Source of the DNA: Citromicrobium bathyomarinum | GTDB taxonomy: Bacteria; Pseudomonadota; Alphaproteobacteria; Sphingomonadales; Sphingomonadaceae | Direction of reading: 5' to 3' | NCBI GenBank assembly: GCA_001306305.2 | Contig: CP155577.1 | Span: 3,021,501 to 3,085,500 of the forward strand | Length of the DNA: 64,000 nucleotides | Shown: in pieces, positions 1,936 to 64,000 of the stretch | Layout of the letters: each line of letters opens with the position of its first letter | Numbering within the stretch: position 1 is the stretch's first letter | Made by a program: the position numbers and the translations under genes | The notes under the pieces: model-generated | What the model was told of the DNA's origin: nothing | Databases searched by the model: none | What the model saw: only the letters and a program-made list of their open reading frames with translations

Positions 1936-2389
1936 GGCGAAGTCGCACCCCGATCAGATCGACTTCTGTTTCGACGCACCTGCGGTGCCGTCGGGCGAGG
2001 CCGCGCTCGCGGGGTTCGAGAGGCGCACCAACGTGTTTGTGGGCGAGATGCTCAATAGCGACGGTCGCGATCGCTACCGGATCGCCGCCGAGGTCAGCAA
2101 GCTGCTGGCGGACGAAGTCTCCAAGACGATGCTCGACGCCTATGCGAGCCCCTCACGCGAGGATCACAAAATCCCCTTCTCCCGCCTGATGGCGATCGTC
2201 GTCGTCACGCGGCGTTACGATCTGCTCGACGCGCACCTGCGCGAAACCGGCTGCGGCGTGATCACCGGACGCGAGCTGGAGACAGTGGAACTCGGCAGCA
2301 TCGAACAGGAGATCAGGGCGCTCCAGGCGAAGGCGCGCGATCTGCGCCGAACCGCTCAGCCCATCCGCCGTGGAGGGGCAAGCGAATGA
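1928..2389 (+). CDS. Hypothetical early phage protein, 153 aa
   Basis: ATG 1928 is chosen because GGAG lies about 10 nt upstream and it keeps the 8-bp overlap with the previous stop. The protein is mixed charged and probably helical, with a C-terminal stretch (about 118-142) rich in Glu, Gln, Leu and Arg that looks like a coiled coil. It directly precedes the transposase gene with a 4-bp overlap (ATGA), so it is translated with it and may be a regulator or accessory protein. I recognise no family. Confidence 0.6.
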   Translation: MAKAKSHPDQIDFCFDAPAVPSGEAALAGFERRTNVFVGEMLNSDGRDRYRIAAEVSKLLADEVSKTMLDAYASPSREDHKIPFSRLMAIVVVTRRYDLLDAHLRETGCGVITGRELETVELGSIEQEIRALQAKARDLRRTAQPIRRGGASE

Positions 2390-4365
2390 GCGCAGAACTG
2401 GCAATCGCTGCGATGACGCAGGAGGACGCATGGTTCTCGGCAGCGGAGCTGGCGGAGCTGGCGCTGCCGGGCCTGCCGACCAACAAGCGCGGGATCAATC
2501 TGCGCGCGAGCGAAGAGCGCTGGGCGTCCCGCGTCGGCAATGATGGCGAAGTGCTGGTGCGCAAGCGCACGGGCCGGGGCGGCGGGACCGAGTATCACCT
2601 CGCTCTGCTGCCCGGCGAAGCGCGGCTTGAGCTGATCCGGCGCGGCCTGGTCGCGGAGGAAGCCCCGAAGACCGACGCAGCGACCCAGCGCGCAGATGCC
2701 TGGAGCTGGTTCGAGCGGCAGCCCGCCAAGGTCAAGCGCGAGGCCGAAGAGCGGCTGAGCATCATTGCCGAGGTCGAGGCACTGGAAGGGGCTGGGGCTT
2801 CGCGAATCGCCGCAGTGGCCGCGATCGCCCAAGAGAAGGACATCGGTTCCTCGACCATTTTCGGCTGGATCAAGAAGGTCCGCGGGCTCGACCGGGCCGA
2901 CCGGCTGCCCGCGCTCGCCTCGCGGCGGAAGGGCGGCGGTGCCAAGGCCGCTATCCCGGACGATCTGTGGCTTTTGTTCAAGTCGCTCGCGCTGCGTCCG
3001 TCTGCGCCCACATTGACAAGCTGTTACGAGCGGGTCGCGGCGGTGGCCGAGGAAAGGGGCGTCTCGATCCCGGTTGAGCGCACCTTCAGGCGGCGTTTGA
3101 AGGCGGAGGTTCCGCCAGAGGTCTGGACGCTCAAACGGCAAGGCGAAGAGGCGCTGGTGCGCTCGGTTCCCGCGAACCGCCGAACGGTGGCCGGCATGCA
3201 CGCGCTCGAATGGGTGAATATCGACGGACACAAGTTCGACGTGCGGGTCGCACCTCCGCCGATGCATCGCTCGAAGAAGCCGATCCGCCCGATGCTGGTC
3301 GCGATCCAGGACGTTTACAGCCGCAAGATCGTGGCGTGGCGGCTCGGCTGCGAGGAGAGCGCGATCCAGACCCGCCTCGCCTTTGCCGATCTCTTCCGCG
3401 AGTGGGGCATTCCGCATCACGCTCTGCTCGACAACAGCCGGGCCTTCTGGAGCAAGTGGATCACTGGCGGATACCGGGGCAAGCGTTTCCGGTTCAAGGT
3501 CAAGCAGGAGGAGCCTGTCGGGCTGCTCACTGGCGTCGGCGTGCAGGTTCACGCTGCGCTGCCCTATCACGGCCAATCGAAGCCGATCGAGCGGGCGTTT
3601 CGCGATCTGGAAAATTACATCGGCAAGGCCCCGGAGTGTGAGGGTGCGTACACCGGCCCCAGCCCGATGGCGAAGCCTTCGAACTACGGCACCAAGGTGG
3701 TGGAGTGGGATACCTTCTCCGCGCTGGTGGACGAGTGGATCACCCGCCATAACGCGCGCACCGGACGCCGCACCGAAGCGGCCAAGGGCCGCAGCTTCGA
3801 CGAGGTGTTTGCCGAAAGCTACGCCACTTCGCGCATTTCGAAAGCGAGCCCGGAGCACCTGCGCTGGGCGCTTCTGGCGGCGGACCAGAAGAAGCTCAAC
3901 AGCCTGAACGGCGAGATCGAGCTGCACGGTAATCGCTACTGGCATCGGGAGCTTTCCGCTTTGCGCGGCGAGCTGGTGACGGTGCGGTTCGACCCGGACG
4001 ATCTGCATTCCGAGGTCCACGTCTACGATCTGGAGGGCCGGTACATCACCGCAGCGCCGGAGCTGGTGGACAGCGGCTTTGCCGATGTCGCCGGAGCGAA
4101 GGAAGCGGCCAAGCGAACCGGCGAATACCGCAAACGGGCCAAGGCATTGGCCGAGGCGGAAGAGCTGATCTCCGCCGACGCGCTGATCGAGCTTCAGGCC
4201 GGATCGAAAGCGCAGTCGGCCAAGCCCGAGGCGGGCGTGGTCGCCCCCGTCAGACACCCGGATGCCGAGGCGCAGCGATCGCCGCGCCCCAAGGCGGCGA
4301 ACAACGCCGCGACACTCGATCGAATGCGCGCGGGACTGCTGAAGCGCGCAGCGAACAGCCAATAA
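2386..4365 (+). CDS. A: Mu-type DDE transposase A
   Basis: The 659-aa protein catalyses strand cleavage and transfer at the phage ends for integration and replicative transposition. The N-terminus (about 14-75) matches the MuA end/enhancer-binding winged helix, with WFSAAEL and later GRGGGTEYH. The RNase H-like core shows the catalytic triad D280 (NIDGHKFD), D349 (LLDNSRAF) and E402 (KPIERAF), close to the MuA spacing. The C-terminal region is basic and Ala/Glu-rich and should contact the MuB-like protein. Length matches MuA (663 aa). The start overlaps the preceding gene by 4 bp. Likely substrates are the tandem CTGGAGC-ending sites at the right end. Confidence 0.95.
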   Translation: MSAELAIAAMTQEDAWFSAAELAELALPGLPTNKRGINLRASEERWASRVGNDGEVLVRKRTGRGGGTEYHLALLPGEARLELIRRGLVAEEAPKTDAATQRADAWSWFERQPAKVKREAEERLSIIAEVEALEGAGASRIAAVAAIAQEKDIGSSTIFGWIKKVRGLDRADRLPALASRRKGGGAKAAIPDDLWLLFKSLALRPSAPTLTSCYERVAAVAEERGVSIPVERTFRRRLKAEVPPEVWTLKRQGEEALVRSVPANRRTVAGMHALEWVNIDGHKFDVRVAPPPMHRSKKPIRPMLVAIQDVYSRKIVAWRLGCEESAIQTRLAFADLFREWGIPHHALLDNSRAFWSKWITGGYRGKRFRFKVKQEEPVGLLTGVGVQVHAALPYHGQSKPIERAFRDLENYIGKAPECEGAYTGPSPMAKPSNYGTKVVEWDTFSALVDEWITRHNARTGRRTEAAKGRSFDEVFAESYATSRISKASPEHLRWALLAADQKKLNSLNGEIELHGNRYWHRELSALRGELVTVRFDPDDLHSEVHVYDLEGRYITAAPELVDSGFADVAGAKEAAKRTGEYRKRAKALAEAEELISADALIELQAGSKAQSAKPEAGVVAPVRHPDAEAQRSPRPKAANNAATLDRMRAGLLKRAANSQ

Positions 4366-31979: not shown

Positions 31980-32413
31980 CTGACGACACCAAGCCTGCCT
32001 TTCCCACACCACGAGGAGAAGATGCGATGTACATCAACACCCTGATCATCGGCGACCAAGCCTGTCTCGACGTGATCGCAGGCAAGCACTGCGTTGTGAT
32101 CGGTGAAGGTGCCAAAGCCGGTGAGACTGACCTCGGCAAGAACCTCTTTCATGTAGAAGGCGTGATCTCGACTGTGATCGATGCCGACGGCTGGGAAGAT
32201 GCTGTGCGACAGGCCCGCAAGGAAGTGATGCGCACCGGCGACCCCGATGCGCTGGAGCCGCTGCTCGCCTTCACTAACGCCGAGGCTGACGATCTTCGGC
32301 AGGCATTTGCCGCAGCGCTCGAATACGTAGATCCGCGCGCCGCTCCGCTGCCGAAACCGTGGGAGCCGCCCGAGGCCCCCGATTTCGACGATCTCGAACC
32401 CACCCCCCTCTGA
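31976..32413 (+). CDS. Small fibre-associated protein, 145 aa (paralogue of previous gene)
   Basis: Two starts compete: ATG 31976 (4-bp overlap, conserved peptide in both prophages) and ATG 32027, which has a strong GAGGAG upstream and aligns with the start of the paralogue. From there the chain MYINTLIIGD...CVVIGEGAKAGETDLGKNLFHVEGV parallels the previous gene. The C-terminus is Pro/Glu/Asp-rich. Function unknown, probably fibre folding or attachment. Confidence 0.65.
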   Translation: MTDDTKPAFPTPRGEDAMYINTLIIGDQACLDVIAGKHCVVIGEGAKAGETDLGKNLFHVEGVISTVIDADGWEDAVRQARKEVMRTGDPDALEPLLAFTNAEADDLRQAFAAALEYVDPRAAPLPKPWEPPEAPDFDDLEPTPL

Positions 32414-32439
32414 ACCGAAACCTGAAAGGACGTTCCATC

Positions 32440-33213
32440 ATGGCCAAGAATCCAAGCAAGAAGAAAGAGGACGCGCCGCTGCGGGTCGATCTCATGAAGC
32501 CCATGCTGGGTTTCGATGGGGAGGCCGTCGTCCGCGAAGAGGCGGCGGACGATCCGCGCGAAGACCCCGAAGAAGTCCCGGTCGATCTGCGCTGGCTGGT
32601 CAAGGTTGCGCTCAACCAGAAATCCCCGCCCGGTGAATCGAAGGGCAAGGCCCTGCGGCGTGTGGATCTGCTCGACCGGCTGCGCGGCACAAAGCCGGTC
32701 AGTCTGGACACCAAGGCGACCGGCCTGATCGAAGAGGCCGTATTGGCGCAGTGGAGCCCGCTGCTGGCCCACACCATTCGCAAAGAACTGAAGCTGGTGC
32801 CGCCTGCCGAAGAGCCCCTCAATGACGCTGTCGAAGTCCACCTAGACGCGCCGATCCTCGACACTAACGACAAGCCGCAGACGCGCAAGGTTCGCGGAGA
32901 GAGCGTCCCGGTGACCGTGCGCCACGCGATTCGCGTTGCGCTCAACAATCATTCCACCGGCTGGGGAGCCGTCGTCCTCGATCAGAGCGGTCGGCTGCGC
33001 GGGCCGGTGGCACGAGAAGAGATGATCCATCGCGGCGCGCTGATAAGCCTGCTGGGCGAAGATGGGCCGGTGCAGCTAGAAACCGACGACATCAAGCTGA
33101 TCGAAGACTGCGTGCACCAGCACTCCGACATCGCAACGCTGGGTGCGGTGCGCCGCGCGATGCGCCCGGCGGCTAGCGAAAGTGGGGAAGAGGTCGCCGC
33201 AAAGGAGGCCTAA
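32440..33213 (+). CDS. Hypothetical last gene of the prophage, 257 aa
   Basis: AAAGGA precedes ATG 32440. The soluble, charged protein starts with a Lys-rich segment (MAKNPSKKKED) and has alternating helices, with VDLRWLVKVALNQ and VTVRHAIRVALNNH as similar internal segments suggesting an internal duplication. It is the last gene before the right end. Conserved in the right prophage. No family recognised. Confidence 0.65.
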   Translation: MAKNPSKKKEDAPLRVDLMKPMLGFDGEAVVREEAADDPREDPEEVPVDLRWLVKVALNQKSPPGESKGKALRRVDLLDRLRGTKPVSLDTKATGLIEEAVLAQWSPLLAHTIRKELKLVPPAEEPLNDAVEVHLDAPILDTNDKPQTRKVRGESVPVTVRHAIRVALNNHSTGWGAVVLDQSGRLRGPVAREEMIHRGALISLLGEDGPVQLETDDIKLIEDCVHQHSDIATLGAVRRAMRPAASESGEEVAAKEA

Positions 33214-33224
33214 GGCCAGTCTAA

Positions 33225-33258
33225 GGGGCCGCTTAACTAGTGATTAGGTGGCCCCTCA
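33225..33258 (+). terminator. Hairpin after the last gene, left prophage
   Basis: AGGGGCC and GGCCCCT pair around a loop of about 19 nt, 12 bp after the final stop codon. No T-run follows. The same structure is in the right prophage. It probably ends the tail operon or protects the transcript before the phage end. Confidence 0.5.
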
Positions 33259-33295
33259 ACAGCGCGCTCCGGTACTCGACCGCCCGGTCCGCAGT

Positions 33296-33343
33296 GCTCC
33301 AGACAGTCTTGTCAAACGCTCCAGAAGGTTTTGACCGGCTACA
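33296..33343 (-). other. Transposase end-binding sites R1 and R2, left prophage
   Basis: Two adjacent sites, 33318-33343 (R1, outermost) and 33296-33317 (R2), each end in CTGGAGC when read inward and match at 15 of 22 positions. Tandem sites of about 22 bp at the tip are the organisation of MuA-bound ends. A weaker third unit ending in CGGAGC may lie further in. Confidence 0.7.
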
Positions 33344-33479
33344 TTCCGGTCACTCCTGAACAATGCCCACCACCGGGCATGCATTCATATTTATGCCGCT
33401 CAATATGAACGCAAGGCGCATAGGGCCGTTCAGGATCGCATTTTTCGTGTCGCGCAATGTATCGCGCCCGCACGCACGT
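33344..33479. other. 136-bp host-like island between two prophage ends
   Basis: The island is visibly more AT-rich than the phages. It contains a hairpin ATGCCC/GGGCAT (33363-33380), a second with 8-bp arms TTCATATT/AATATGAA (33384-33409), and an outer pair TCCTGAAC/GTTCAGGA (33354-33361, 33428-33435). It could be an intergenic host region such as a terminator. I recognise no gene. The 5-bp flanks TTCCG (left phage) and CACGT (right phage) should be repeated at the far prophage ends. Confidence 0.65.
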
Positions 33480-33527
33480 TGTAGCCGGTCAAAACCTTCT
33501 GGAGCGTTTGACAAGACTGTCTGGAGC
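33480..33527 (+). other. Transposase end-binding sites R1 and R2, right prophage
   Basis: R1 is 33480-33505 and R2 33506-33527, identical to the left prophage sites. Both end in CTGGAGC. Identical sites predict that either transposase can act on either phage. Confidence 0.7.
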
Positions 33528-33564
33528 ACTGCGGGCCGGGCGGTCGGGTGCCGGAGCGCGCTGT

Positions 33565-33598
33565 TGAGGGGCCACCTAATCACTGGTTAAGCGGCCCC
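33565..33598 (-). terminator. Hairpin after the last gene, right prophage
   Basis: Same AGGGGCC/GGCCCCT stem with a loop of about 19 nt as in the left prophage, just after the final stop at 33610. No T-run. Confidence 0.5.
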
Positions 33599-33609
33599 TT
33601 AGACGGGCC

Positions 33610-34383
33610 TTAGGCTTCCTTTGCGGCGACCTCTTCGCCACTTTCGCTAGCCGCCGGGCGCATAGCGCGGCGCACCGCACCCAGCGTTGCGATGTCGGAG
33701 TGCTGGTGCACGCAGTCCTCGATCAACTTGATGTCATCGAACTCCAGATGCACCGGCCCTTCTTCGCCCAGCTGGCTGATCAGCGCGCCGCGATCGATCA
33801 TCTCCTCTCGTGCCACCGGCCCACGCAGCCGACCGCTTTGGTCGAGGACGACCGCCCCCCAGCCGGTGGGGTGGTTGTTGAGTGCGATGCGAATCGCGTG
33901 GCGCACGGTCACCGGGATGCTCTCTCCGCGAACCATGCGCGTTTGCGGCTTGTCATTGGTGCCGAGGATCGGCGCGTCCAGCTGGACTTCGACAGCGTCC
34001 TTCAGTGGCTCTTCGGCAGGCGGCACCAGCTTCAGTTCCTTGCGGATGGTGTGGGCGAGCAGCGGGCTCCACTGGGCGAGAACTGCTTCTTCGATCAGGC
34101 CGATCGCCTTGGTGTCCAGACTGACCGGCTTTGTGCCCCGCAGCCGGTCAAGCAGATCGACACGGCGCAGGGCCTTGCCCTTCGATTCACCGGGCGGGGA
34201 TTTCTGGTTGAGCGCAACCTTGACCAGCCAGCGCAGATCGACCGGGACTTCTTCCGGGTCTTCGCGAGGATCATCCGCCGCCTCTTCGCGGACGACTGTC
34301 TCCCCATCCAAACCCAGCATGGGCTTCATGAGATCGACCCGCAGCAGCGCGTCCTCTTTCTTCTTGCTCGGATTCTTGGCCAT
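33610..34383 (-). CDS. Hypothetical last gene, right prophage, 257 aa
   Basis: Homologue of the gene at 32440, same length, with scattered conservative changes (for example LGFDGEAV versus LGLDGETV). Starts with the same Lys-rich MAKNPSKKKED; RBS GAAAGG. Retention of frame and length in both phages supports a real protein of unknown function. Confidence 0.65.
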   Translation of the reverse strand: MAKNPSKKKEDALLRVDLMKPMLGLDGETVVREEAADDPREDPEEVPVDLRWLVKVALNQKSPPGESKGKALRRVDLLDRLRGTKPVSLDTKAIGLIEEAVLAQWSPLLAHTIRKELKLVPPAEEPLKDAVEVQLDAPILGTNDKPQTRMVRGESIPVTVRHAIRIALNNHPTGWGAVVLDQSGRLRGPVAREEMIDRGALISQLGEEGPVHLEFDDIKLIEDCVHQHSDIATLGAVRRAMRPAASESGEEVAAKEA

Positions 34384-34394
34384 TGAACGTCCTT

Positions 34395-34844
34395 TCAGGT
34401 GTCGGTTGAGAGGGTGGTGGGTTCGAGATCGTCGAAATCGGGGGCCTCGGGCGGCTCCCACCGTTTTGGCAGCGGAGCATCGCGGGGATCGACGGATGCG
34501 AGTGCGGCGGCGAAAGCCTGACGAAGATCGTCAGCCGGGGCGTCGGTGAAGGCGAGCAGCGGCTCCAGCGCATCGGGGTTGCCGGTGCGCATCACATCCT
34601 TCCGGGCCTTCCGCACAGCATCTTCCCAGCCGGGCGCATCGACCACGATCGAGATTACGCCCTCGACGTGAAACAGCTTCTTGCCGAGGTCGGTCTCACC
34701 CGCTTTGGCACCGTCACCGATCAAAACGCAGTGTTTACCATCGGTGATGTCGAGACCGGCACCGTCGCCGATGATCAGGGTGTTGATGTACATCGCATCT
34801 TCTCCTCCAGGTGTGGGAAAGGCGGGCTTGCTGTCGCCGGTCAT
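34395..34844 (-). CDS. Small fibre-associated protein 2, right prophage, 149 aa
   Basis: Homologue of 31976-32413 and paralogue of the next upstream gene. The stretch GKHCVLIGDGAKAGETDLGKKLFHVEGV is conserved; the C-terminus is four residues longer. The same start ambiguity exists (upstream ATG in a 4-bp overlap or an internal ATG behind GGAGAAG). Confidence 0.65.
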   Translation of the reverse strand: MTGDSKPAFPTPGGEDAMYINTLIIGDGAGLDITDGKHCVLIGDGAKAGETDLGKKLFHVEGVISIVVDAPGWEDAVRKARKDVMRTGNPDALEPLLAFTDAPADDLRQAFAAALASVDPRDAPLPKRWEPPEAPDFDDLEPTTLSTDT

Positions 34845-61048: not shown

Positions 61049-61206
61049 AGCGCCTCTCCGAGGGCATATGCGGCGAGGATGCTCAGCACGTAAAATGAGA
61101 GCGTGGCTGAAAACACGGTCAGCGCCTCGCGCGCGGTCGCACCGCGACCGAACAGCGCATCATATTCGCGCACAGAGCGGCGCAGCTCACGAAACACGCG
61201 GATCAT
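61045..61206 (-). CDS. Small single-span membrane protein, right prophage
   Basis: The 53-aa protein appears identical to the left copy (5359-5520); ATGA overlap with the MuB gene. Confidence 0.65.
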   Translation of the reverse strand: MIRVFRELRRSVREYDALFGRGATAREALTVFSATLSFYVLSILAAYALGEAL

Positions 61207-62183
61207 GCCTTCACCCAGCGGGTTGAACGCGCCATCTGCGCATCGCGCAGGTCCGTGACGGAGAGGAACTCGCGGTCTTCTCCATCGGCGATCAGGGAAG
61301 CCGCCTCGATCAGCTGCTGGCATTCGCCGAGCCCGCCTGCATGCGGTGTCAGCGCGATCCTGCGCAGATAACCGCGCATGTCGCCCTGCTTGATCCCCCA
61401 GGCATCGCAGAACGTCTCGACATCACCTTCGGTCGGCACCTTCTGGATATGCCGGTGCGAAATCCTGCGGTTGAGCCGCGCCAGCTGGTCGGACTTACCG
61501 CCGCTCTCGATCTGCGCGATCAGCTCCTCGTTTCCGAACAGCGCAATGCCCACGCCGGTTTCGTCATGCCAGCTGCGCAGCTCCTCGATCGCCTCGATCG
61601 AAAGGTAGTTGGCTTCGTCGACCACCAGCAGCGCCTTGCGATCGATCAGCTTGTCGATCACCATCTGCGAGGCGTCCCGCGTCGGCATCCGCAGCCCCGG
61701 CATCCCCAGCGCCTTTTGCACCTGCTGGATCATCGGCAGCACCCGCTGCGAGCTGGGCCGCATCGTCGCGACGTAGCAGTTGGGTGCCTTCTGCTTGTAT
61801 TCGCGGATCGACATCGTCTTGCCGGTGCCGGGGCCGGTGCCTGCGGCAGTGATCCGCCCTTCATGGGCCATCAACAGCAGGCCTTCGAGGCGCACCGAAG
61901 TCTCGGTCTCGAAGAAGCCGGGGTTGATCGGCAGCTTCTCTTGCCGCTTGGTCTGCGCCTCGATCGTCTGACGATAACCGAACAGCTTGCGCGCATACTT
62001 GGCGTTGTCGCCTTTGTAGCTGCCCTTCAGGAACGCCTGGAGGGTGCTCTCCGCGATCCCGACCGCTTTGGCATAGCGCGCCCAGGGAATCGGCGGATCG
62101 GTCGCCTCGCGGTGGGCAATACCCCACAGCCGGATGTCTTCGATGTCGTCGTCATTGATCGGAAGTTGGCTTACGTTGATCAT
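61203..62183 (-). CDS. B: Mu-type target-capture ATPase B, right prophage
   Basis: The 326-aa protein appears identical to the left MuB-like protein, with Walker A GTGPGTGKT and Walker B VVDE. The DNA differs at scattered silent sites, so the identity is protein-level. Confidence 0.93.
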   Translation of the reverse strand: MINVSQLPINDDDIEDIRLWGIAHREATDPPIPWARYAKAVGIAESTLQAFLKGSYKGDNAKYARKLFGYRQTIEAQTKRQEKLPINPGFFETETSVRLEGLLLMAHEGRITAAGTGPGTGKTMSIREYKQKAPNCYVATMRPSSQRVLPMIQQVQKALGMPGLRMPTRDASQMVIDKLIDRKALLVVDEANYLSIEAIEELRSWHDETGVGIALFGNEELIAQIESGGKSDQLARLNRRISHRHIQKVPTEGDVETFCDAWGIKQGDMRGYLRRIALTPHAGGLGECQQLIEAASLIADGEDREFLSVTDLRDAQMARSTRWVKA

Positions 62184-62199: not shown

Positions 62200-64000
62200 T
62201 TATTGGCTGTTCGCTGCGCGCTTCAGCAGTCCCGCGCGCATTCGATCGAGTGTCGCGGCGTTGTTCGCCGCCTTGGGGCGCGGCGATCGCTGCGCCTCGG
62301 CATCCGGGTGTCTGACGGGGGCGACCACGCCCGCCTCGGGCTTGGCCGACTGCGCTTTCGATCCGGCCTGAAGCTCGATCAGCGCGTCGGCGGAGATCAG
62401 CTCTTCCGCCTCGGCCAATGCCTTGGCCCGTTTGCGGTATTCGCCGGTTCGCTTGGCCGCTTCCTTCGCCCCGGCGACATCGGCAAAGCCGCTGTCCACC
62501 AGCTCCGGCGCTGCGGTGATGTAGCGCCCCTCCAGATCGTAGACGTGGACCTCGGAATGCAGATTGTCCGGGTCGAACCGCACCGTCACCAGCTCGCCAC
62601 GCAAAGCGGAAAGCTCCCGATGCCAGTAGCGATTGCCGTGCAGCTCGATCTCGCCGTTCAGGCTGTTGAGCTTCTTCTGGTCCGCCGCCAGAAGCGCCCA
62701 GCGCAGGTGCTCCGGGCTCGCTTTCGAAATGCGTGAAGTGGCGTAGCTTTCGGCAAACACCTCGTCGAAGCTGCGGCCCTTGGCCGCTTCGGTGCGGCGT
62801 CCGGTGCGCGCGTTGTGGCGGGTGATCCACTCGTCCACCAGCGCGGAGAAGGTATCCCACTCCACCACCTTGGTGCCGTAGTTCGAAGGCTTCGCCATCG
62901 GGCTGGGGCCGGTGTACGCACCCTCACACTCCGGGGCCTTGCCGATGTAATTTTCCAGATCGCGAAACGCCCGCTCGATCGGCTTCGATTGGCCGTGATA
63001 GGGCAGCGCCGCGTGAACCTGCACGCCGACGCCAGTTAGCAACCCGACAGGCTCCTCCTGCTTGACCTTGAACCGGAAACGCTTGCCCCGGTGTCCGCCA
63101 GTGATCCACTTGCTCCAGAAGGCCCGGCTGTTGTCGAGCAGAGCGTGATGCGGGATGCCCCACTCGCGGAAGAGATCGGCAAAGGCGAGGCGAGTCTGGA
63201 TCGCGCTCTCCTCGCAGCCGAGCCGCCACGCCACGATCTTGCGGCTGTAAACGTCTTGGATCGCGACCAGCATAGGGCGGATCGGCTCCTTCGAGCGATG
63301 CATCGGCGGAGGTGCGACCCGCACGTCGAACTTGTGTCCGTCGATATTCACCCATTCGAGCGCGTGCATGCCGGCCACCGTTCGGCGGTTCGCGGGAACC
63401 GAGCGCACCAGCGCCTCTTCGCCTTGCCGTTTGAGCGTCCAGACCTCTGGCGGAACCTCCGCCTTCAAACGCCTCCTGAAGGTGCGCTCAACCGGGATCG
63501 AGACGCCCCTTTCCTCGGCCGCCGCCGCGACCCGCTCGTAACAGCTTGTCAAAGTGGGCGCAGACGGACGCAGCGCGAGCGACTTGAACAAAAGCCACAG
63601 ATCGTCCGGGATCGCTGCCTTGGCGCCGCCGCCCTTCCGCCGCGAGGCGAGCGCGGGCAGCCGGTCGGCCCGGTCGAGCCCGCGGACCTTTTTTATCCAG
63701 CCGAAAATGGTCGAGGAACCGATGTCCCTCTCTTGGGCGATCGCGGCCACAGCGGCGATACGCGAAGCGCCAGCGCCTTCCAGTGCCTCGACCTCGGCAA
63801 TGATGCTCAGCCGCTCTTCGGCCTCCCGCTTCACCTTGGCGGGCTGCCGCTCGAACCAGTTCCAAGCGTCTGCGCGCTGGGTCGCTGCGTCGGTTTTCGG
63901 GGCTTCCTCCGCGACCACGCCGCGACGGATCAGCTCAAGCCGCGCTTCGCCGGGCAGCAGAGCGAGGTGATACTCGGTCCCGCCGCCCCGGCCCGTGCGC
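62200..64000 (-). CDS. A: Mu-type DDE transposase A, right prophage, 5' end outside window
   Basis: 599 residues are visible, corresponding to left residues 61-659, from the RTGRGGGTEYH segment on. The DDE residues (NIDGHKFD, LLDNSRAF, KPIERAF) and C-terminus are kept. Only a handful of substitutions (WNWF for WSWF, GGHRGKRF for GGYRGKRF). The N-terminal start codon lies beyond 64000. Confidence 0.94.
   Translation of the reverse strand, partial: RTGRGGGTEYHLALLPGEARLELIRRGVVAEEAPKTDAATQRADAWNWFERQPAKVKREAEERLSIIAEVEALEGAGASRIAAVAAIAQERDIGSSTIFGWIKKVRGLDRADRLPALASRRKGGGAKAAIPDDLWLLFKSLALRPSAPTLTSCYERVAAAAEERGVSIPVERTFRRRLKAEVPPEVWTLKRQGEEALVRSVPANRRTVAGMHALEWVNIDGHKFDVRVAPPPMHRSKEPIRPMLVAIQDVYSRKIVAWRLGCEESAIQTRLAFADLFREWGIPHHALLDNSRAFWSKWITGGHRGKRFRFKVKQEEPVGLLTGVGVQVHAALPYHGQSKPIERAFRDLENYIGKAPECEGAYTGPSPMAKPSNYGTKVVEWDTFSALVDEWITRHNARTGRRTEAAKGRSFDEVFAESYATSRISKASPEHLRWALLAADQKKLNSLNGEIELHGNRYWHRELSALRGELVTVRFDPDNLHSEVHVYDLEGRYITAAPELVDSGFADVAGAKEAAKRTGEYRKRAKALAEAEELISADALIELQAGSKAQSAKPEAGVVAPVRHPDAEAQRSPRPKAANNAATLDRMRAGLLKRAANSQ

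Follow-up and report, generated by a model that had tools for sequence, protein, structure and literature searches.

Two distinct Mu-like phages, A and B, were each integrated by their own transposition, with their own target duplication, into the intergenic DNA that separates an rcnB-family gene from phoH, and the two prophages face each other right end to right end across 136 bp of host DNA. Their arrangement is well supported and unusual; the phages themselves are ordinary Mu-like elements, and the spacing is what surprises. The window, that is, the whole stretch of 64,000 bases analysed (3,021,501-3,085,500 of a one-contig chromosome of 3,298,986 bases), holds the junction and part of each prophage; the outer ends lie beyond it, at window-scale positions -4481 for A and 70487 for B.

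Structure of the paired prophages

The features are given on the scale of the window, with chromosome positions (C1) where an element extends beyond it.

1-33343, plus strand: prophage A, in-window part (ends, 5-bp duplications, Mu-type proteins); entire element -4481 to 33343, C1:3017019-3054843, 37,825 bp
33480-64000, minus strand: prophage B, in-window part (ends, 5-bp duplications; MuA on the minus strand); entire element 33480 to 70487, C1:3054980-3091987, 37,008 bp
33344-33479: host island between the right ends, 136 bp, 55% G+C, native rcnB/phoH intergenic DNA
33344-33348, plus strand: inner copy of TTCCG (duplication of A); outer copy immediately left of -4481
33475-33479, plus strand: inner copy of CACGT (duplication of B); outer copy immediately right of 70487
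2386-4365, plus strand: MuA-type transposase of A, 659 aa; Pfam DDE_2, HTH_Tnp_Mu_1 and _2, Mu-transpos_C
62200-64000 and on to 64179, minus strand: MuA-type transposase of B, differing from that of A at 7 of 659 residues
4382-5362, plus strand: MuB-type ATPase of A, 326 aa; AAA_22 (PF13401) and Phage-MuB_C (PF09077) above cut-off
61203-62183, minus strand: MuB-type ATPase of B, protein identical to that of A
33289-33343, minus strand: right terminus of A, 55 bp shared without mismatch by B; contains two candidate transposase sites
33480-33534, plus strand: right terminus of B, the identical 55 bp
32359-33213, plus strand: last gene of A before its right end, 284 aa, no family found
33610-34461, minus strand: last gene of B before its right end, 283 aa
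C1:1755791-1757587 (L053, with L054 and L010): third Mu-like prophage of the same genome

The prophages lie in opposite orientations, and the mapped right ends at 33343 and 33480 confirm the original prediction of inverted elements 136 bp apart. A is flanked on both sides by TTCCG and B on both sides by CACGT, each a perfect 5-bp duplication, and the outer copies were found at the outer ends of A and B as predicted. The MuB-type proteins, which had been described as identical, show 0 differences in 326 residues, the 13 of 981 bases that differ between their genes leaving the protein unchanged. The terminal transposase sites had likewise been called identical; this holds for the right ends (55 bp), whereas the left ends differ by one mismatch in the first 28 bp.

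The transposases are of the MuA-type DDE class, with PF02914, PF09039, PF09299 and PF02316 all above their cut-offs, and share 98.9% identity between A and B. The MuB-type protein of A is 29% identical to MuB of phage Mu. Head and tail genes of Mu-like or tailed-phage type were present (portal, major head protein, protease, tape measure and tail fibre), as was GemA. With a MuA-type transposase, an adjoining MuB-type ATPase, 5-bp duplications and head genes, A and B add to a known kind, the Mu-like transposable phages. Judged by MuA, the nearest named relative among the best 80 of 158 relatives was Erythrobacter ramosus (62%); IMG/VR contigs reached 82% and the best cultured-phage record, Microcystis phage Mwe-Yong1, 44%. 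Mosaic relatives are present in IMG/VR: two contigs of one virus record (L073 and L166) resemble A at about 94-98%, and for two others (L169 and L170) the match, at about 94%, is to the right-hand portion of the third Mu-like prophage.

About 32.4 of the 37.8 kb of A could be aligned with B, at 92.9% identity and in mosaic blocks, and inverted arms of this length far exceed chance expectation. A and B together make up an imperfect palindrome of about 75 kb, with 37-kb arms and a 136-bp spacer. The early regions differ at one matching position, which is occupied in A by a PAPS-reductase-like gene (PF01507, 561-1673) and in B by another gene of 317 aa (window-scale 64892-65845), an exchange that may involve cargo or defence-like genes.

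The integration site in related genomes

The island lies between the rcnB-family gene (RcnB, PF11776) and the divergent phoH gene (PhoH, PF02562). The empty site was rebuilt by linking the two outer flanks via the island and keeping a single copy of each duplication, which yields this intergenic region. In seven of the nine other genomes of the genus (G001 and G003-G008) the island was uninterrupted by any large insert, with identities of 98% in G001, 95% in G008 and 70-78% in G003, G004, G005, G006 and G007; the alignments were inspected in six of these seven (all but G003). In G001 and G008 the island is continuous with both flanks, gap-free and colinear, and a MuA search gave no match. An uninterrupted version with its flanks, as the original prediction envisaged, is thus present in related strains. 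G009 matched on the phoH side alone. In G002, which belongs to the same species, 1,223 bp (L013:1830-3052) replace 22 bp that include the target of B; this insert had no match to the A/B region, and it contains an open reading frame for a glycine-rich, apparently secreted protein. The island itself holds an inverted repeat at 33384-33409, TTCATATT-N10-AATATGAA with outer TCCTGAAC/GTTCAGGA, which likely serves the rcnB-family gene as its operator.

The locus is native and unrearranged: the matching duplications and the colinear island in relatives argue against a fold-back artefact, an adjacent inversion, an inversion of the island and a joining of distant insertions. A rearrangement could in principle have brought together two distant insertions, or a copy and its replicative daughter, by inversion or recombination. 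Replicative intramolecular transposition of Mu can yield inverted copies, and recombination between inverted prophages is possible. However, an inversion of the island or next to it would mismatch the 5-bp sequences, and both pairs match; in G001 and G008 the island is colinear with its flanks, and the identity of 92.9% where A and B align shows that they are not sister copies. We therefore consider this origin very unlikely. Equally improbable is an assembly error by which the junction or one of the prophages would be artefactual. Two 37-kb near-repeats are difficult to assemble and the assembly was judged without reads, but a false join would not produce four matching duplications together with a colinear empty site in relatives, and a fold-back would make equal arms, whereas those of A and B differ in sequence. 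Identity through the junction is also seen in an IMG/VR record, which was rejected as an independent sighting: the identity is 100% across 13,752 bases, a copy identical to the third prophage of this genome accompanies it, and the record evidently comes from the same strain. The checks that the original interpretation had asked for favour two real insertions, and the rearrangement and the assembly join that it had offered are, given the matching outer duplications and the uninterrupted island, both very unlikely.

Close insertion, cis-immunity and target choice

In wild-type Mu early after induction, there are zero insertions within 1.5 kb of the ends and bulk levels are reached at about 7 kb, and in Mu lacking MuB late insertions start 98 bp from the ends (PMC7350765). 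A distance of 136 bp is thus physically possible, yet falls within the strictly immune zone of Mu. With MuB identical, MuA at 98.9% and the right-terminal 55 bp identical, Mu-type cis-immunity should apply between A and B, and lost recognition is not the reason for their proximity. The 1.5-kb exclusion was nevertheless absent here, where right ends with the same sites are 136 bp apart, in a single case that is set against a Mu value from induced cells.

This could mean that the group is wholly without cis-immunity, its MuA-MuB pair failing to clear MuB near the ends. The spacing itself and the low identity of MuB to that of Mu are in line with such a loss, and 136 bp would be feasible if clearing fails, as the 98-bp insertions of MuB-less Mu illustrate. 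We regard it as improbable, since MuB is present with both its AAA and its C-terminal domain, Mu-like phages of a related family spare their own genome during replication, though by genome immunity and not cis-immunity (PMC12486242), and the surveys described here yielded no other close pair.

The main rival is chance. Here cis-immunity would be working but leaky, and a rare second hit at 136 bp, in an intergenic site tolerated by the host, would have been noticed through the many windows scanned. That only one close pair emerged across the surveys agrees with this, as does the leaky self-insertion immunity of phage Ab30, with 0.4% of events (PMC5977238). If insertion were uniform, however, a given pair would come within 136 bp of each other with a probability of 8.4e-5, and any one of the three pairs with 2.5e-4, even before immunity is allowed for, and the insertion-free 1.5 kb of wild-type Mu weighs in the same direction. 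We take chance to be possible but rather unlikely.

MuA was found at E <= 1e-60 in 11 of 397 family genomes, with more than one copy in the present genome (G000) only; its third Mu-like prophage, with a MuA 56% identical, lies about 1.27 Mb away with the duplication GCCAA, apparently within a gene. Among 389 class genomes, 14 contained PF02914 and five contained at least two copies (G000, G426, G676, G728 and G756); G000 apart, only in G676 do both share a contig, at a distance of 3.5 Mb. The phylum sample, which shares genomes with the class and family samples, gave 13 of 396, and besides G000 the genomes G426, G756 and G1091 carried two on separate contigs. For the species collection, no two occurred on one contig among the best 80 of 158 relatives. 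Across these four surveys no second close Mu-like pair was found, a result of low power, since multi-copy genomes are mostly drafts and short-read assemblies break where near-identical copies lie side by side. A search of the plasmid collection for the A/B junction gave no hit, and no report of closely spaced Mu-like pairs was found among the titles and abstract openings listed in literature searches. In E. coli, taken as a control for double lysogens of Mu, 99 places in 86 of 5,426 genomes were counted, a count of places and not of spacings.

Eleven further prophages of the group were considered, and both end regions were taken for ten of them (G378 was left out). Equal 5-bp duplications bounded nine of the ten, G261 being the exception. 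Eight insertions with long flanks were read by hand: six were intergenic (G390, G341, G245, G007, G361 and G035) and two lay in genes (the third prophage of G000 and that of G073), and the binomial figure (6/8 against 12-15%) depends on this hand reading. A strict screen for high-GC3 open reading frames left just two of the eight other sites (G007 and G361) free of spanning frames; as it also flags the sites of A and B, it is over-strict. The target consensus NYSRN is fitted by five of nine other sites and misfitted by both TTCCG and CACGT, and a target motif was thereby ruled out as the cause of the clustering. The island folds slightly better than shuffled sequences (z = -2.1). Around ten insertion sites, A and B included, folding strength was unremarkable when set against other places within those flanks (mean fractions 0.49, 0.54 and 0.66), G361 alone being extreme. 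A hairpin hot spot as a general rule was rejected, these ten sites not being enriched for strong hairpins; the flanks of some relatives resemble what we take to be repeated palindromes. A hot spot common to relatives was also rejected, as neither phoH nor rcnB was found in the flank loci taken for the other ten group prophages or in two virus contigs with similar right ends. At the locus itself, two insertions within 136 bp in this genome stand beside nine genus relatives, of which seven are uninterrupted, one is uninformative and one has an unrelated insert.

The repressors of A and B are both of the Peptidase_S24 family and are 60% identical overall. In their N-terminal part 40 of 66 residues are identical, a divergence not above that of the rest of the protein, and the DNA from the repressor to the next gene is dissimilar between A and B. 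The 60% identity suggests that A and B are heteroimmune, and differing repressors would offer a way for the second phage to establish. The original interpretation makes no mention of this difference, nor could it draw on the integration hot spots of Mu-like phages in Citromicrobium (PMC12486242).

The reading we prefer, with a probability of about one half, is that the second phage, a heteroimmune sibling of the first, entered a preferred site at a time when too little MuA was bound to the ends of the resident for immunity. The repressor of the resident would fail to silence the newcomer. The site would lie in a stretch preferred at integration and not in replication, as in Mu-like phages of Citromicrobium, whose replicative transposition is chromosome-wide and whose integration is strongly site-biased: all lysogens of phiA (n = 24) were in one 40-bp zone, and phiB had six integration hot spots (n = 20) (PMC12486242). 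If the same bias holds here, two hits in one short region are unsurprising, and we infer a hot spot at the rcnB-phoH locus. Cis-immunity requires MuA on the ends of the resident, of which a repressed resident and a freshly injected newcomer would supply little; it would have been inactive at the second insertion, owing to low MuA occupancy of those ends. It would then protect during lytic-cycle transposition but scarcely when a sibling lysogenises. Two of the options originally listed, a hot-spot target and immunity that is weak or absent, may have acted jointly. Against this combined reading stand the seven of nine uninterrupted relatives, the misfit to NYSRN, the lack of hairpin enrichment, the two of eight sites passing the strict screen and the lack of a second pair. 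A wider generalisation, which we advance tentatively and with some doubt, is that integration and replication follow different target rules, lysogenic integration being directed to few short intergenic zones and blind to cis-immunity, so that heteroimmune siblings would stack and build giant palindromes.

Palindromes are acted upon in E. coli by the nuclease subunit SbcD together with SbcC. SbcD (TIGR00619) gave no match in this genome and matched in 13 of 14 control genomes; only eight of 60 relatives had a match, one of them above cut-off, and its absence is thus usual in this group. SbcC gave weak matches alone, below cut-off. One might speculate that the absence of SbcD helps the palindrome to persist.

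Significance and comparison with known systems

Induced laboratory cells have provided good measurements of Mu cis-immunity, and what it does in nature is a matter of debate; one possibility put forward is that it may be no more than a by-product (PMC2837660). Packaging reaches on average 1.5 kb beyond the right end of Mu (PMC7350765). In situ packaging of either A or B would accordingly cut the DNA of its neighbour, and averting such an arrangement is a suggested function of cis-immunity. As two intact insertions whose phages have MuB and right ends in common, separated by 136 bp, the pair is a natural counterexample with clean molecular evidence. It makes testable both immunity during a second lysogenisation and the choice of target in integration as against replication.

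The phages phiA and phiB share with A and B a marine host of the Sphingomonadales, the order of Citromicrobium. They are Mu-like with 5-bp duplications, occur in polylysogens, are mitomycin-inducible and show a strong integration bias of the kind proposed for A and B, a likeness drawn from their description; they differ in that no inverted pair is reported in the passages considered and that the phiA zone lies within a hypothetical gene (PMC12486242). On the reading preferred here, phage Ab30 of the D3112 group, from Pseudomonas, resembles A and B in having hot spots on top of broad targeting and a leaky self-immunity, but its hot spots adjoin REP/BIME palindromes (PMC5977238), and no such general link emerged for the A/B group.

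Few chromosomes carry very large inverted repeats with close spacing: five of 1,368 circular genomes contain them at an identity of at least 98% (PMC5345009). These chromosome-terminus repeats are similar to A and B in extending over tens of kb, closely spaced, on a circular chromosome. They differ in being at least 98% identical and located at the terminus, whereas A and B are two prophages of about 93% identity; the junction, at 3,055 kb, is not opposite dnaA, which lies at 792 kb. A further close reference is phage Mu (Muvirus mu; Walker and Harshey 2020, PMC7350765), with which A and B have in common the MuA and MuB homologues, the 5-bp duplication and a genome of about 37 kb. In Mu about 1.5 kb beside the ends is spared early after induction, whereas A and B have near-identical ends 136 bp apart.
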